A stretch of 22,312 bases of DNA, taken from positions 1-22,312 of the IMG/VR virus record IMGVR_UViG_3300046010_004201; one strand, written 5' to 3'. The position numbers and the translations under genes were made by a program. Below are positions 2,335 through 10,920 of the stretch, piece after piece (position 1 is the stretch's first letter; the number at the start of each line of letters is the position of its first letter). The notes under the pieces were generated by a model. It made no database searches. It was given only the letters and a program-made list of their open reading frames with translations, and was not told where the DNA came from. Source of the stretch: a virus.

Positions 2335-2371
2335 CCCTGTACCGAGCCGAGAGCTCAGTACAGGGTTTTTT
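2335..2371 (+). terminator. Strong intrinsic terminator of the rightward early operon
   Basis: CCCTGTAC (2335-2342) pairs with GTACAGGG (2358-2365), and GAGC (2344-2347) with GCTC inside it; six T residues (2366-2371) follow. On the minus strand there is no T-run after the stem, so it should end only the rightward transcript. It lies at the 3' end of the converging primase gene. Confidence 0.85.
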
Positions 2372-4673
2372 ATTTCACCAAGCGAACCGCGGCCGGTGTC
2401 GGCGGTTGTTCGGCCAAGCGCCTGAGCTCAGTACGCGACATGTCGGCCATGTCTGGCGCGCAGAACAGCTGTTTTTTGGTATTGAAGTCCCGCGAATGTA
2501 CGCGGCCCAAGTCCACCCATCCGGCCTCGGTTAACGCGTGCAAAAGCGCAACCGGTGGGATTTTGACGCCGGCCGGCGCAGACCCTGCTAGCCGGTCACA
2601 AAGCGAGAAAAACGGGGACGCGACGACACCGGCCGCAAATTCACCCACGCGGCCGGTAATGAGTTCAACCAAGTACGACTCGGCCGTACTGCGGCCGTGA
2701 TCAATCATAATCGCTTTTGCTTCTGTCATCGGCGGCGCTGCGCCAGGGTTAAACATTGACACGTCGCGGCTGTGTAGATAAGACGCGACAGCCGCGAAGC
2801 CGCATTTATGTTTGTACCAGTTCCACAAGCGCCGCGCGTCGGCCTCAGGCAGCCGGCCGGCGTCCGACCATAGGCAAAACCATCGCCGGTCATTAGTTGG
2901 GATACTAATCGCCGCCCTCTCGTTTGAGAATGCCACCACCAGGACGCGGTTCGGGGCCATGTAAGGGTGCAAACCCTTGCGGTTGATCTGTAAAAAGTCC
3001 GGCGGCGCTGCAATGATCGGTTTTAGACTGTTCTCGAGCGCGCGCCGATCCCGGGCTTCACTCTGGCGCAGTTCGGCGATTTCCATCACTTCACACTCGA
3101 GCGCATAACCCCACTGGGACGTGAGTTCCTCGTTGCGCACCAGGCTGCAGTTTTGCTTAGTGTCGCCGCCAATAGCCCAAAAGAACGGCGCCATCATGGT
3201 GTCTTTACCGCTGCCGGGTAAACCGCCGACCAAGACGGCGTGATTGATTTTCACGCTCGGGTTTTGGGTTTTGTAGGCCAAGACGTTCAGAAGATGCTCG
3301 CGCTCGTCCTCGTTAGGCACCATGCGCTCGACATGGGCCAGCCACGGGGACGCGTCGCCGGCCGTCGGGTTCGGCCGTGCGTTGCGCCAGCGGTTACCGA
3401 ACTCGACGCCGTCACGGCGCACTACCACGCCATCGCCGGCCGCGTAGGTGATACCGGTCAAGGCCATCGCGCCCTTCGCGTCTCGGTTCTCGTCAAAACA
3501 GACGGACGCCTCGATTCGGCGGCCGTTATGAATCGACAGGCAACTAATGTGGCGGAAAAGGGCATTGAACGCGCTGCGCGTCACTTCTCGCCGGTCGACC
3601 AGGTCGAAATACGCCTCATCCTCGACAATGTACGCGAAGCGCTCATACCAGCCCTCGCGCTCGACACGCGCCAATTGCCGGCGCTCGACGGCCTCGACCA
3701 CCTCGGCCGCCACGTCCGGGAACTCGTCCGTCGGTTCGAGTTTAGCCAGCGCCATGTTCATCGTGCCGACGATCAGTTCCTCGCGCAGGCCGGGCTCGCG
3801 TTTCGGCCCACCGTTCGCCGCCACCCAGGCCAGAAAGTCCGTAGAGCCCAAGTCGATGCAATGCGAATGCAGGCAGCAATACGCCCTCGAGGACGGGTTG
3901 TAGCGCCCTTCCGGGTTGCCGTCCGTGTGCTGATCCTTATTCGGGCAGACGACGCCTGCCCATCCCTCGCGGTTGGGTTTGGTCAGCACCAGACCATGCT
4001 CGCCCAGCCACCCGAAGACGTCGTCGCCACCGTCGTCCGCCAGTTTGATTGGGTTAACGCCGATCGATTCGACCGGCACCGGCGTGACGTTCAATGCCGT
4101 GCAGATTTCGTCTAGCGTGTACTCGCGCGTCGGGTGAAACTCGGTCAACTGCGCGGCAAAGCTATTGCGGCCGGGTTTTAAGTTAACCGAGCCCGGTAGG
4201 CGGAAGTTGCGCACCGGATTGCAGGCGCCAGGGTCGCTGTAGCCGGCCGCTGCGATCGCTTTAATGGCCGCGGCATAGTCGGCTTTGGTCGGCTGTTCCG
4301 AGAATGCGTAGCCCCACTGAAACGATCCGGGCGACGTCTCCATGATCCAGGTGGGCGCTAACGGCGGCGTCTCAGGCGCTTTGGCCGGGTCGCCCACGTC
4401 GTCTAGCACCATCACTAAGACGTACTCGCAGTTCGCGGCGCTGGCGCTAGGTTTGCCTTCAGTAAACCGATCGACGATAAACGACGCGGTGTTGCCGTAC
4501 CACGCCTCGCCGTCACGGCGACGGTGATCAGGATAGAACGCCGGCCAGACGGCCTTGACCGCCCCGTCGGCGTGCAGTTCGACCTGTCCGTCTTTGAGTT
4601 TCGGCTTTTGCCGAACGATTAATAGGGTTTCGCCTTCAGGCGCGAGTTTTGTGAGATACTCTAAGAACTCCAA
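2370..4673 (-). CDS. Bifunctional primase-helicase (AEP-like primase plus superfamily 3-type ATPase)
   Basis: This 767-aa protein combines priming and helicase domains, a common phage and plasmid arrangement. The N-terminal part (about 1-200) has features of archaeo-eukaryotic primase/RepB-like domains: VLVMVLDDVGD with paired Asp at 91-92, WIMETSPGSFQWGYAF, and CNPVRNFRLPGSVNLKPG at about 151-168. A small cysteine/histidine cluster follows (C243, H249, C266, C267, H269, H272). The helicase domain has Walker A GGLPGSGKDT at 483-492. The start is TTG 4673, supported by GGGAG about 9 nt upstream and by the absence of another start until residue 88. It is the last gene of the leftward replication operon, separated from the polymerase by a hairpin. 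Its DNA is GGCC-rich, unlike the polymerase gene. Confidence 0.85.
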   Translation of the reverse strand: MEFLEYLTKLAPEGETLLIVRQKPKLKDGQVELHADGAVKAVWPAFYPDHRRRDGEAWYGNTASFIVDRFTEGKPSASAANCEYVLVMVLDDVGDPAKAPETPPLAPTWIMETSPGSFQWGYAFSEQPTKADYAAAIKAIAAAGYSDPGACNPVRNFRLPGSVNLKPGRNSFAAQLTEFHPTREYTLDEICTALNVTPVPVESIGVNPIKLADDGGDDVFGWLGEHGLVLTKPNREGWAGVVCPNKDQHTDGNPEGRYNPSSRAYCCLHSHCIDLGSTDFLAWVAANGGPKREPGLREELIVGTMNMALAKLEPTDEFPDVAAEVVEAVERRQLARVEREGWYERFAYIVEDEAYFDLVDRREVTRSAFNALFRHISCLSIHNGRRIEASVCFDENRDAKGAMALTGITYAAGDGVVVRRDGVEFGNRWRNARPNPTAGDASPWLAHVERMVPNEDEREHLLNVLAYKTQNPSVKINHAVLVGGLPGSGKDTMMAPFFWAIGGDTKQNCSLVRNEELTSQWGYALECEVMEIAELRQSEARDRRALENSLKPIIAAPPDFLQINRKGLHPYMAPNRVLVVAFSNERAAISIPTNDRRWFCLWSDAGRLPEADARRLWNWYKHKCGFAAVASYLHSRDVSMFNPGAAPPMTEAKAIMIDHGRSTAESYLVELITGRVGEFAAGVVASPFFSLCDRLAGSAPAGVKIPPVALLHALTEAGWVDLGRVHSRDFNTKKQLFCAPDMADMSRTELRRLAEQPPTPAAVRLVK

Positions 4674-4693: not shown

Positions 4694-4721
4694 AAAGCCG
4701 CCCTGCCAGGCGGCTTTTTTT
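4694..4721. terminator. Hairpin between polymerase and primase genes
   Basis: AAAGCCGCC (4694-4702) pairs perfectly with GGCGGCTTT (4709-4717) around CTGCCA. Read rightward it ends in seven T residues and is a textbook terminator, although no rightward gene lies upstream. Read leftward it follows the polymerase stop directly and has only TTT after the stem, so it would be a weak terminator or attenuator ahead of the primase gene. Confidence 0.7.
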
Positions 4722-6687
4722 ATTTGCCGTACCGGGTCATTGTTTTGACACCAGCGTTTAAAGGTAGTCCTGCCGCCCAGTCAGGCGGCGTACACATCAC
4801 TTGCTTTAGGGTATTGGGTGCTTCAGGGTCTGCCGTCTCCAGAACGATCTCGTCATGCACATGCAGCACGACGTCATCTAATTGGCGTAAAGAATGCCGT
4901 AGCAAGTCGTGTGCGATTGCCTGAGTAATATTCTCACAGGCCAACCCCTTCCACAAGCGCGCTCTCGGCCATTCTTTGGCGTCGGCCGCCGGTTTCCATG
5001 CCGCCTTGATATAGGTGATCTCGTCGCCCTCGAACTTAGCGAATGGGTAACACAGGATTCGACCCGAGGGCAGCGCGTACCAGAGATGCTGACCGTCGTA
5101 GAGGTACGTCACACGTCCGGCTGAGAACTCACGCCCTGGGTTGCGTAGCGCCCGCGTGTAGGCGTCTTCGAGCTTCGCCCAGTAACGCACCGCCCATGAG
5201 TTTGCACGGCGCCACGCGTCCACAATCCGCCGCGCGTCCGACTCAGGCATATAGACCTTGTAGACGCGCCCCATTGCAGAGAAGGCGCCGATCGAGCCGC
5301 CGAAACCGAGTGAAAGAATGGCGACCTTGCCGATCTGGCGCCGATCGGACTCGCCGGTCTGCTCGTACTCTTCGGCGATCTCTTCGTATGGCACCCGGTA
5401 GATGCCAGCGGCCTCACGGATGTAAATATCTTTGCCTGCGCGGAAGGTATCCAGCACCTCTTCAGCCTGCGGATCGGCGGACGCCCACGCTGTTACGCGA
5501 GCCTCAACCGCCGACCAGTCGGCGACAACGAACTGCTTGCCGGGCGCTGGGATCAGTGCGGGCCGGAGCATTCCCTTGAGAACATCCGTAACGCGAACTC
5601 CAAATCTTGGGACGACGCTGTGGCCACGGACCATAGCGTGCCTAACGTCATCGGGTTCTGCTGCGCACTTTCGGGTGAAGTTGTGAACCTGTGCCCCATA
5701 GCTTGACGCACGCCCGGTGGCAGATCCTCCGGCGAAGACAAATGCACCTCGTACTCGGTGATCAACTTCGTCAGCCAGCTCGCCAAGGCGGCTGAACTTC
5801 GCAACCGACGACGCCCAGAGGTCATCCGCGCATTGAATGACGTCCGCAACATGGGCCGGAATTTCATCAGCATTCTCCTTGGCTAAGATGAGCAAGTTGG
5901 CGCGTACCGTCTTATCAATACTGTACTTCTTTTCGCCGTCCTTGTAGACCTCCATCAGCTTTAACGCCTGCTCGCCGACGCGCTCCATCACCCACGCTTT
6001 CATGCGCGGGCTGCGCACTGAAGAGATATCACCCTTGGTTATATCTTGCACCAGGTTCTCGATCTCTTCCATCTCGGTCGCGGCGTATTTGATCGCAGCC
6101 TGGGCGAGCGGTAGGTCAAGCAAGACGCCACGGTCGTTGATGCGCTCGTTGACGTGGTAGTCGAGTAACTCTTCGTCGGTAAGCTGGCGCATCGCCTTGC
6201 TGATCTCGCGCATGGAGCGGACATCCTGCTCGCAATAGCGAATCATCTCGACCATTAGTTCGGGCGAATCGTTAAACGATCCATCAGCGCGAGGGATGGA
6301 AAGTGCACGGATAAGTTGGCTACCTCGGTGGTCTTTGCGCATGTTGCTGGAAATGGCGCGTCCGACGTCTTCAAGGCTGCCCGGTAGGCAGTTAGCACGC
6401 GCTTGAGTAGCGGTGCAGTAGAACTGTTCGAGTTGAAAGTCACACTGTAGGACGTACCAAAAGATGAGTCGCTCGAACGCGGCGTTATGCGCGCGTATTT
6501 GCCCGGTGTGATTCTTAACAGAATCCGGAAAAGGCTGGTCGGGAGTCCAGGTGACAACGGGATCGTCGTCAAATGCGTAGGACATGCATAACACATCCGT
6601 GGTGCCGTCTTGAGCATAGTTATAAACTCCACGCGAGAACAGGTCGCAGCGGCTGCGGGTTTCAAAATCACAATAAAGCACCTTCAT
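4720..6687 (-). CDS. Family A DNA polymerase with 3'-5' exonuclease domain
   Basis: This 655-aa replicative polymerase has both expected domains. Proofreading exonuclease: Exo I DFETRS (D7, E9), Exo II AHNAAFERL (N68, F71, E72) and Exo III YCEQD (Y151, D155). Polymerase: ATGRASS near 323-329, motif A VVADWSAVEARV with catalytic D390, motif B RRQIGKVAILSLGFGG (R450, K454) and motif C VLHVHDEIVLE (H611, D612, E613). All catalytic residues appear intact. Length fits phage polymerases that lack the 5' nuclease. The ATG (6687) overlaps the stop of the HNH gene (ATGA), so translation is probably coupled. The stop overlaps the T-run of the 4694-4721 hairpin. Confidence 0.97.
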   Translation of the reverse strand: MKVLYCDFETRSRCDLFSRGVYNYAQDGTTDVLCMSYAFDDDPVVTWTPDQPFPDSVKNHTGQIRAHNAAFERLIFWYVLQCDFQLEQFYCTATQARANCLPGSLEDVGRAISSNMRKDHRGSQLIRALSIPRADGSFNDSPELMVEMIRYCEQDVRSMREISKAMRQLTDEELLDYHVNERINDRGVLLDLPLAQAAIKYAATEMEEIENLVQDITKGDISSVRSPRMKAWVMERVGEQALKLMEVYKDGEKKYSIDKTVRANLLILAKENADEIPAHVADVIQCADDLWASSVAKFSRLGELADEVDHRVRGAFVFAGGSATGRASSYGAQVHNFTRKCAAEPDDVRHAMVRGHSVVPRFGVRVTDVLKGMLRPALIPAPGKQFVVADWSAVEARVTAWASADPQAEEVLDTFRAGKDIYIREAAGIYRVPYEEIAEEYEQTGESDRRQIGKVAILSLGFGGSIGAFSAMGRVYKVYMPESDARRIVDAWRRANSWAVRYWAKLEDAYTRALRNPGREFSAGRVTYLYDGQHLWYALPSGRILCYPFAKFEGDEITYIKAAWKPAADAKEWPRARLWKGLACENITQAIAHDLLRHSLRQLDDVVLHVHDEIVLETADPEAPNTLKQVMCTPPDWAAGLPLNAGVKTMTRYGK

Positions 6688-7112
6688 TTTTTACCTCGAC
6701 GCGTAATTCGCCCTCTATCAAGCGCGGCTTTTCGTTCTGGTGTCATCCACGTACCGTGTCGGATAGCGTCGCGTATGTTTTCTGTCCTTGTGCCCCACCG
6801 CAAATTTACCAAACGGTTGTCAGCTGGGTTTCCATTTGCGTGCAAACATTCGAAGCCTTCCGGCGCGGGCCCCACAAACGCCAGCAAAACCAATTTATGT
6901 ACGCATTGACTGTTGTGTCTACCAAGCGATACCGATAGATGTCCTGCTGGCATACGCCCCGGCCTAAGCATACGGCCTTGTCTAACAGAAAAATACGAAC
7001 CTTTAATGGTTCCCTCGCACATAACTAAACGCGTGGAAGACCGCACGCGCCCTTGATCGCTGACTTCATATTGGCCTTCGTAGCCAGGTATAGGCTTCCA
7101 AATTTCTTTCAT
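6684..7112 (-). CDS. HNH homing-type endonuclease with NUMOD4 domain
   Basis: This 142-aa protein begins MKEIWKPIPGYEGQYEVSDQ, the classical NUMOD4 opening (about 3-45). An HNH core follows at about 85-130: VHKLVLLAFVGPAP, then CLHANGNPADNRLVNLRWGT, with the usual His and Asn positions, and a basic tail. Start ATG 7112 was chosen because NUMOD4 starts there; the frame extends upstream but only through the inverted-repeat element. It is probably a free-standing homing endonuclease inserted next to the polymerase gene. It overlaps the polymerase start by 4 nt. Neither neighbouring protein is interrupted, so there is no sign that it lies in an intron. Confidence 0.9.
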   Translation of the reverse strand: MKEIWKPIPGYEGQYEVSDQGRVRSSTRLVMCEGTIKGSYFSVRQGRMLRPGRMPAGHLSVSLGRHNSQCVHKLVLLAFVGPAPEGFECLHANGNPADNRLVNLRWGTRTENIRDAIRHGTWMTPERKAALDRGRITRRGKK

Positions 7113-7124
7113 GCTGCCACCAAT

Positions 7125-7227
7125 AAAAAAGCCCTGTTCTGCATTCTCGTCGTAAGACGTTGGCGGACTCGGCAGACACCGAGCAGAATGCAGAACAGGG
7201 CTTGTCTGTAAGCGTGCCGCCAAGCAC
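7125..7227 (-). ncRNA. Structured RNA element: 19-bp stem, three-way junction, possible pseudoknot, T-run
   Basis: Arms 7129-7147 and 7185-7203 are perfect 19-bp inverted repeats. Between them lie two further hairpins: CGTC/GACG (7148-7151 with 7156-7159) and CTCGG/CCGAG (7168-7172 with 7179-7183). The linker TTGGCGG (7160-7166) is complementary to CCGCCAA (7217-7223), most of which is the loop of another small hairpin (GTGC 7214-7217 with GCAC 7224-7227). On the minus strand the long stem runs straight into TTTTTT (7130-7125), so it can act as a terminator just before the HNH gene. The extra structure is far more than a terminator needs. It could be a cis-acting regulator of the downstream HNH, polymerase and primase genes. 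Confidence 0.55.
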
Positions 7228-7254
7228 ATACAAATATTAGCATAGTGTAGGGGT

Positions 7255-7325
7255 GGCTCCGGTCATTCGACCGCTGTCAGGTAGATCCGACCAAGGGTAC
7301 CTAACATCAAAATGACCAGAGCCAT
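7255..7325 (-). other. Second inverted repeat in the same non-coding gap, enclosing a 20-codon frame
   Basis: GGCTCCGGTCATT (7255-7267) and AATGACCAGAGCC (7311-7323) form a 13-bp stem with a single G-T type pair. Inside, AGGTA and TACCT give a further small stem. One arm can instead fold locally as GGTC-ATTC-GACC, so alternative structures compete. On the minus strand a 20-codon frame (MALVILMLGTLGRIYLTAVE) starts at 7325 and stops at 7263, at the two arms of the stem, without a visible ribosome site. The rest of the 7113-7418 gap holds only further short hairpins; I see no other gene in it. Confidence 0.4.
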
Positions 7326-9727: not shown

Positions 9728-9921
9728 AGACACAAAAAGACATAGACGTACTACACAAAGCAGATTGGTTTTCCGATACGCCAGAAATTGTTCAGCGTTT
9801 ACGCAATGATGGTGAGCTTGAGATTGCGCGGCACCTGCATAGAATGCACGTCTACCATAAAGCACTGATCGCCGAGATTAGAAAGCTGCGTCGACAGCTG
9901 AAAGAAAAGAATGCAGCTTAG
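9724..9921 (+). CDS. Hypothetical coiled-coil protein (65 aa)
   Basis: The start is taken at ATG 9724, overlapping the previous stop (ATGA), with AAGGAG at 9709-9714; GTG 9718 is an alternative. The second half (LEIARHLHRMHVYHKALIAEIRKLRRQLKEKN) is a charged helix with leucine heptads, likely a coiled coil for dimerisation. No function is recognised. It overlaps the helicase start by 11 nt. Confidence 0.65.
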   Translation: MKTQKDIDVLHKADWFSDTPEIVQRLRNDGELEIARHLHRMHVYHKALIAEIRKLRRQLKEKNAA

Positions 9922-10920
9922 ACCTTACCAGGAAGAGGCCGCCGACTTCTTGTACGAGAACGACCGCGCGTTGGTGTTGGCGCCTGTGGGCGCCGGCAAG
10001 ACCGCGATCACGTTAACCGCAATGGGTGACATCATTGCAGACAAGATCGCGCAGCGTTTTCTTGTACTCGCGCCCAAGCGCGTCTGCACCGACGTGTGTT
10101 ACTCGGCCGTGCGAAGGGTGCGTTCATGCAGCAGTACTTTGTCTGCACCAATCGCGACTTCGGCGACTGGGCGCCGCGCAAAGGCGCGCTGGAGCAGGTC
10201 ATGCGACGCATCAAGCCGGCGACGTTCCTATTGGAGCCGGGCGACTACAAGGACAAACTGCCGCCGTGTCATGTTGTCGAGCTGCGCTGCGAGATCGACG
10301 ATCGTCAGCCATATGAAATGATGAAGCGCGACTTCGTGGTGGACTTCCCTGACGCCCAGGCGGTGGCGGCTAACGCGGCCGTGGTGACTAACAAGCTTCA
10401 GCAGATGGCGTCCGGTTTTGTTTACGACACGACGAAACTCGCCAGCGCCATGCCCGGCAAGTTCACCGTCACCAAGAAAGCGGTGTGGTTCAGCAGTCAC
10501 AAGTTCGATTTGTTGCATGACCTTTTGGAGGAAAACCAACATGCCAATACGATCCTGGTTTACCAGTTTGAAGAAGAGCTTGCAGAGATTAAAAGGCGCT
10601 ATCCACAGGTTCAGACATTGGATGACGTGGACGCGGTGGAGCGTTGGAATAAAGGGTTGGTCGAGCTTATGGCCATTCACCCGAAAAGCGCGGGACACGG
10701 ACTTAACCTACAGTACGGAGGGAGCTGCATTGCTTTTATATCCCTACCGTGGTCCCTTGAGCTGTACGAGCAGACCGTCGGACGTCTGCATCGTTCCGGG
10801 CAACTGCGAGAGGTATGGGTGTATATCCTTATGGCACAGAGAACGGTCGACGAAAAAATCTGGGCTGCCCTGCACGACAAACGAGCCATTTCAGACATCG
10901 CATTGGAGGCATTGAAATGA
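9911..10920 (+). pseudogene. SNF2-type DNA helicase, broken by an out-of-frame internal deletion
   Basis: The frame from ATG 9911 encodes a proper helicase start: Q motif-like LRPYQEEAADFL, Walker A APVGAGKT (residues 24-31) and LAPKRVCTDV. After about 10096 it loses homology and ends at 10321. From GTG 10096 another frame carries the rest: LLGRAKGAFMQQYFVCTNRDFGDWAPRKG, motif V-like HPKSAGHGLNLQ and motif VI QTVGRLHRSGQ, ending at TGA 10920. The section with the Walker B/DExx box and motif III is absent from every frame. The simplest reading is a deletion of roughly 100 or more codons near 10094-10099 that also shifts the frame. Neither half alone should be an active ATPase. An assembly or sequencing error is the main alternative. 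Confidence 0.8.

Follow-up and report, generated by a model that had tools for sequence, protein, structure and literature searches.

A terminator-ended phage RNA with two pseudoknots ahead of replication genes as a possible transcription attenuator

On the minus strand of the window, by which we mean the whole 22.3-kb virus record analysed (22,312 nucleotides), an RNA of about 103 nt extends from 7227 to 7125 and comprises a 5' hairpin, a three-way junction and two pseudoknots, whereby the 18–19 bp stem P1 of the junction doubles as the stem of an intrinsic terminator. This RNA probably decides whether the adjacent gene, most often a replication gene, is switched on. That it does so as a cis-acting transcription attenuator, in which promoter, double-pseudoknot RNA and terminator form a self-contained leader and gate the next gene, is a reading to which we give an even chance. 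The initial annotation of this DNA had proposed a structured RNA with a terminator at its end, located directly before replication genes, a view supported by the relatives described below; the second pseudoknot, the existence of an RNA family, the promoter-like box at the 5' end and the location of the RNA within an insert missing in close relatives go beyond it.

Read 5' to 3' on the minus strand, the RNA opens with the hairpin H0 (GTGC TTGGCG GCAC, 7214–7227), the stem of which covaries in 72 relatives and the loop strand of which (TTGGCGG, 7217–7223) constitutes the 5' strand of the first pseudoknot, PK1. The 5' strand of the second pseudoknot, PK2 (CAGACA, 7203–7208), lies directly 5' of P1. 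The 5' arm of P1 (7185–7203) is 19 nt long, or 18 nt if PK2 uses position 7203, and is the perfect complement of the 3' arm (7129–7147), which forms the terminator stem with it, as complementarity and covariation indicate. Enclosed between the arms are the covarying hairpin P2 (CTCG..CGAG, 7168–7183), whose loop TGTCTG (7173–7178) is the 3' strand of PK2 and pairs with 7203–7208; the junction strand J2/3 (CCGCCAA, 7160–7166), which is the 3' strand of PK1; and the hairpin P3 (CGTC TTAC GACG, 7148–7159), which covaries while its loop varies in sequence and length. The six T residues of the T-run (TTTTTT, 7125–7130) conclude the RNA and are conserved in relatives. The perfect 19-bp stem, the two enclosed hairpins, the six T residues and, in plus-strand letters, the linker TTGGCGG at 7160–7166 with its complement CCGCCAA at 7217–7223 are all found where the initial annotation had placed them. 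When folding was compared with 200 dinucleotide shuffles, z was -5.7 for the minus strand and -4.9 for the plus strand, no shuffle being as good. The strand, left uncertain by the initial annotation on account of a plus-strand GTAA loop of GNRA type, is the minus strand: T-run, promoter-like box and start codon all lie on it, which rules out the plus strand, and the GTAA loop is not conserved, the P3 loops of relatives reading GCGA, GCAA, GTAA, TTAC and others on the minus strand.

Evolutionary comparison supports every helix of this fold. In a set of 72 dereplicated sequences compared with shuffles, 96.1% of the pair cells of P1, P2, P3 and H0 are standard-paired versus 73.9% in shuffles, the covariation score is 0.589 versus 0.166, and both-sided changes occur at 30 of 37 pairs, the other seven being those of PK1, which show none because the PK1 sequence was fixed by that search. 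Compensatory changes, the absence of which would have spoken against the proposed structure, are therefore present, and every helix is kept in relatives. P1 has a near-constant length and all of its pairs covary in this set; of the two pairs at its center, one is mismatched in 41 and the other in 18 of the 72 sequences, and in the predicted structure this conserved mid-stem mismatch divides P1 into a lower and an upper half.

Since the first pattern searches fixed either the PK1 or the stem sequence, covariation was invisible there, and a scan blind to PK1 was done next. Among the 80 distinct sequences that it yielded, the H0 loop is the exact complement of J2/3 in all 80, and the loop compensates every change in J2/3: TTGGCGG/CCGCCAA is found in 47 sequences, TTGACGG/CCGTCAA in 19, TTGGAGG/CCTCCAA in 10 and TTGGCAG/CTGCCAA in 4, amounting to three kinds of compensatory double change. 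Moreover, a diverged second copy in one virus record (G043; a paralogue at L433:3355-3500), which precedes another gene, has a different PK1, CTGCAA/TTGCAG. The 7-bp pairing of loop and junction, suspected in the initial annotation, is real as judged by these compensations. PK2, formed by the P2 loop and the strand immediately 5' of P1, is represented by 47 different helices in 72 sequences. Because the gaps that MAFFT placed in the PK2 loop were inconsistent in alignment A1, PK2 was tested by a register-free permutation and in a second alignment, A2. The mean Watson-Crick run is 5.78 versus 3.12 with partners swapped (permutation maximum 3.47), and in A2 93.9% of the pairs are formed, with changes on both sides at five of six positions. 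In 70 of the 72 sequences the 5' strand of PK2 stops 0–1 nt from P1. It should be noted that covariation alone does not reveal whether two strands pair in the same molecule or across two copies.

Both ends of the RNA carry recognizable signals. A -10-like hexamer resembling TATAAT starts 16–19 nt before the H0 loop in most members and is present in the tested interval in 87% of members, compared with 36% in shuffles and 8–15% in upstream control windows. In the window it is part of an extended -10-like box, TGcTAATAT (TGCTAATAT, 7234–7242, minus), with the hexamer beginning at 7239, at a distance of 16 nt from the loop (7223); the position of the box predicts a transcription start at or near the first base of H0, which is about 7227 in the window, and the RNA is hence predicted to start at its own promoter. 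At the other end, a G+C-rich P1 base (AGCCC/GGGCT) is followed by TTTTTT, as expected from the sequence of an intrinsic terminator. The T-run follows P1 at 138 of 139 loci in a search that did not require it and in 66 of 66 members of the PK1-blind set. One family member (L291, at about 9555, minus) has intact stems and lacks the T-run, having a GGAG sequence resembling a ribosome-binding site instead, and two large Burkholderiaceae genomes (L436 and L437) contain copies with damaged lower P1 and T-run that are perhaps prophage remnants. A scan of the window with a strict two-hexamer promoter pattern and a generic terminator pattern found nothing, because the former needs a -35 hexamer and the latter allows only short loops.

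The minus-strand replication cassette of the window encodes, in this order, a DUF2800/PD-(D/E)XK exonuclease, an SSB-like protein, a NUMOD4-HNH endonuclease, a family A polymerase and a primase/helicase; the name SSB-like is a guess from gene order, the sole match being to a PHROG labelled nucleotidyltransferase. Directly behind the RNA lies the NUMOD4-HNH gene (6684–7112, minus; Pfam PF07463 and PF13392), its start codon at 7112 being 12 nt past the T-run, and downstream of RNA and HNH gene follow the polymerase gene (4720–6687, minus; Pfam PF00476, phrog_17) and, further downstream, the primase/helicase-like gene (2370–4673, minus; DUF5906, by domain and PHROG matches). Alignment with four relatives (L006, L007, L032 and L034) revealed that RNA and HNH gene form one insert of about 553 bp (6688–7240, minus), flanked on one side by a conserved leader hairpin distinct from the RNA and on the other by the polymerase gene. 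Relative to L006 and L007, the polymerases of which are 93% identical and which have neither the RNA nor the HNH gene, the insert site (7240 to 6688) is exactly the polymerase start codon, and the TG of the promoter-like box in the window derives from the ATG with which the polymerase gene starts in L006. Among 80 relatives retrieved by their polymerase protein, the 19-bp stem was found in L011 and L028 only, both of which also have an 80% identical HNH gene. Is the RNA then an integral part of the HNH element? This is ruled out, as the RNA also precedes initiators, ParB-like genes and a polymerase; moreover, HNH relatives in L100, L104, L105 and L113 sit in records without the RNA.

The gap between the SSB-like and the polymerase gene is an insertion hotspot in the relatives L003–L082, ranging in size from 0 to about 1590 nt and containing an apparent DNA methyltransferase (L004), two kinds of HNH genes and others, and the insertion point, downstream of the leader hairpin, is often right at the start codon of the polymerase gene. 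This separate long hairpin (window 7254–7324, minus; loop CCTTGGTCGG, stem TGGCTC..GAGCCA) lies just upstream of the RNA, and hairpins of its type occur in the same gap in L004–L060, ahead of the polymerase or whichever gene occupies the site. Its 38 distinct relatives align to a single consensus fold and have no T-run, and from its sequence it also looks like a conserved leader RNA.

How widespread is the RNA? A search with the stem sequence retrieved 16 contigs, and even in this first set the genes that follow the RNA differ, the one in L085 being the polymerase itself. Patterns built on the conserved core raised the number to 112 distinct, structurally checked members, and after later scans at least 163 distinct sequences pass a strict parser, with a median length of 103 nt. 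Almost all members are located on viral contigs, nearly all of them of environmental phages. Genuine matches in genomes come from one Polynucleobacter genome and from two MAGs, one of Burkholderiales and one betaproteobacterial; a genome search at family level found the RNA in 3 of 398 genomes, including that Polynucleobacter, and a search at class level in Polynucleobacter only. One copy is found in 44 of 45 matching virus records, which may be incomplete, and two in G043. BLAST of the window region against named phages gave no match; with another member as query, the matches are two Manatee Spring phage records that have the same length, and a copy is present in the one inspected.

What follows the RNA differs widely: the start codon mostly lies 8–15 nt after the T-run, across many unrelated protein clusters. 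Replication initiator-like proteins constitute the largest cluster among 112 downstream genes (54), followed by NUMOD4-HNH endonucleases (15) and ParB-like proteins (8); further downstream genes encode other HNH and GIY-YIG endonucleases, a DNA polymerase (once) and others. By a mechanical count, a start codon is at most 20 nt away in 84 of 132 members, compared with 13 of the 41 further terminators that these loci contain, and the compactness of phage genomes accounts for part of this short spacing. In the Polynucleobacter prophage (L404) the order, with names read from translations, is CI-like repressor, small gene, RNA, O-like initiator and DnaC-like ATPase, and the place of the RNA is presumably that of nutR/tR1 in lambda. 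In another record (L196) the RNA is the first element of a rightward operon. In other members the RNA is often located inside an operon: for 66 of 100, the next gene upstream has the orientation of the RNA. The layout is that of an attenuator or riboswitch-like leader, with a structured RNA in the 5' leader, a terminator and a gene of the same orientation directly behind.

How could such an RNA control the gene behind it? Sequence comparison yields the fold including PK1 and PK2, as well as the promoter-like box, the T-run and the nearby start codon; beyond these, we infer a competition in which the pseudoknots oppose pairing at the foot of the terminator stem. RNA polymerase would start at H0, and PK1 and PK2 would form on the emerging RNA before the 3' arm of P1 exists. 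PK2 would hold the strand abutting the base of P1 and tie it to the P2 loop at the far end of the 18-bp stem, and in this pseudoknotted state the terminator base would stay open, leading to read-through. If PK2 were broken, P1 would close and transcription terminate. A protein, a ligand, the speed of polymerase or kinetics alone could tip the balance. The main argument for cis-attenuation is the dependence of the adjacent gene on read-through, which is to be expected as the few nucleotides from T-run to start codon cannot accommodate a promoter. By an estimate from A-form geometry, PK2 and a fully zipped P1 are hard to reconcile, as 18 bp span about 50 Å and the connection is 0–1 nt long; for PK2 to form with P1, at least about four base pairs at the foot would have to be open or P1 would have to kink at the central mismatch. 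Such a kink could also let PK2 and the full P1 coexist. Approximate energies are -10.9 kcal/mol for PK1, -6.0 kcal/mol for PK2, -10.7 kcal/mol for lower P1 and -28 kcal/mol for the whole of P1. PK1 and PK2 together, at about -17 kcal/mol, compare with -10.7 kcal/mol for lower P1, which makes a switch possible; the whole of P1 is stronger than both pseudoknots, the terminator therefore wins at equilibrium, and so kinetics would have to favor the pseudoknots. Against the attenuator count this possible coexistence, the member that keeps the structure without a T-run (L291), the damaged Burkholderiaceae copies and the 13 of 41 other terminators that also closely precede a start codon. In addition, few unpaired positions seem to be conserved, unlike in a typical ligand aptamer. 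We consider it rather doubtful that promoter, double-pseudoknot sensor and terminator constitute a portable cassette, interchangeable before unrelated genes, which would sense a signal of host or phage origin, would gate replication genes with no need of a dedicated protein and would represent a new class of phage RNA switch.

The main rival, possible though somewhat unlikely in our judgement, is a trans-acting phage small RNA of about 103 nt, equipped with promoter, protective 5' hairpin, folded body and terminator, that acts elsewhere on host or phage RNA or protein and has the next gene close by owing to genome compactness. For such an RNA a promoter-like box exactly at the 5' end, the near-universal T-run, the usual presence of a single copy per record and downstream genes of many unrelated kinds would all be fitting. 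However, a distance of 8–15 nt leaves the next gene promoterless, which is hardly acceptable for a polymerase or an initiator unless read-through is designed in, and at these loci a start codon lies at such a short distance less frequently behind general terminators. In another proposal, which takes up the put sites of phage HK022 named in the initial annotation, the folded leader would bind RNA polymerase in cis and render it resistant to the terminator of the RNA and to later ones. Put RNAs are about 70 nt long, consist of two stem-loops, occur in two copies per genome, bind the β' zinc-binding domain and, as described, have no terminator of their own (PMC9378689). The RNA family resembles them as a phage leader RNA near an early promoter and ahead of early or replication genes, at the start of rightward replication operons in L404 and L196 and so in the position of nutR/tR1 or put in lambdoid phages, with an elaborate and length-constrained fold and, if our reading is right, an effect on termination in cis. 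But it ends in its own terminator, has about 103 nt that comprise H0 and a three-way junction with two pseudoknots instead of two stem-loops, and usually is present once rather than as putL plus putR, so that we do not assign it to the put RNAs and hold a put-like action to be improbable; of the two suggestions in the initial annotation, the regulated terminator is also the best reading here, and evidence of a put site was not found. Very improbable is an ordinary terminator and/or RNase III processing signal with an inner structure that is merely stabilizing: the 18-bp P1 of near-constant length, mismatched in its middle, resembles two-part RNase III substrates and is followed by a T-run, but neither role needs two pseudoknots kept by compensatory change with a strand upstream of the terminator.

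The cis-acting attenuator can be set beside several known systems. By position it resembles lambda nutR-tR1, located between early promoter and replication genes with a terminator to be overcome; nut function needs the N protein and boxA/boxB. The c4 antisense RNA of P1/P7-type phages is a phage regulatory RNA that controls termination in an operon, and its family (RF01695) has no Rfam match at the RNA. A proven precedent for a pseudoknot that competes with a terminator is the fluoride riboswitch (PMC11077080); the transcriptional version (crcB) likewise forms a pseudoknotted fold first and then an intrinsic terminator that displaces part of it, whereas here the terminator stem encloses the junction and both pseudoknots reach in from the 5' side, and there is no match to RF01734 at the RNA. 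Polynucleobacter-1 (RF01718), a candidate cis-regulatory RNA of Burkholderiales and fresh water (PMC2864571), was not found at the RNA when its model was run on ten records, which gave weak matches below the cut-off elsewhere. With Rfam 15 nothing in the window reached the gathering threshold, and at the RNA in the window and in other members there were chance-level matches only; a literature search of incomplete coverage found no description of this RNA. We file the RNA as a new family of a known kind, that of regulated leaders and terminators.

The family is a structured RNA widespread in environmental phages, without an Rfam entry, and its fold is proven by evolution with unusual clarity. 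Should the RNA be an attenuator, replication genes in phages of Burkholderiales-type hosts would be controlled by RNA, where lambda uses the N protein and nut sites; if it acts in trans, it would be an unexplored phage RNA. As ready-made mutants, nature offers three compensatory variants of PK1 and 47 variants of PK2. As a minor observation elsewhere in the window, a helicase frame on the plus strand (9911–10920) is apparently split, with a DEAD/ResIII N-terminal part at 9911–10321 and the remainder at 10096–10920 in another frame, suggesting a frameshift or a sequencing error.
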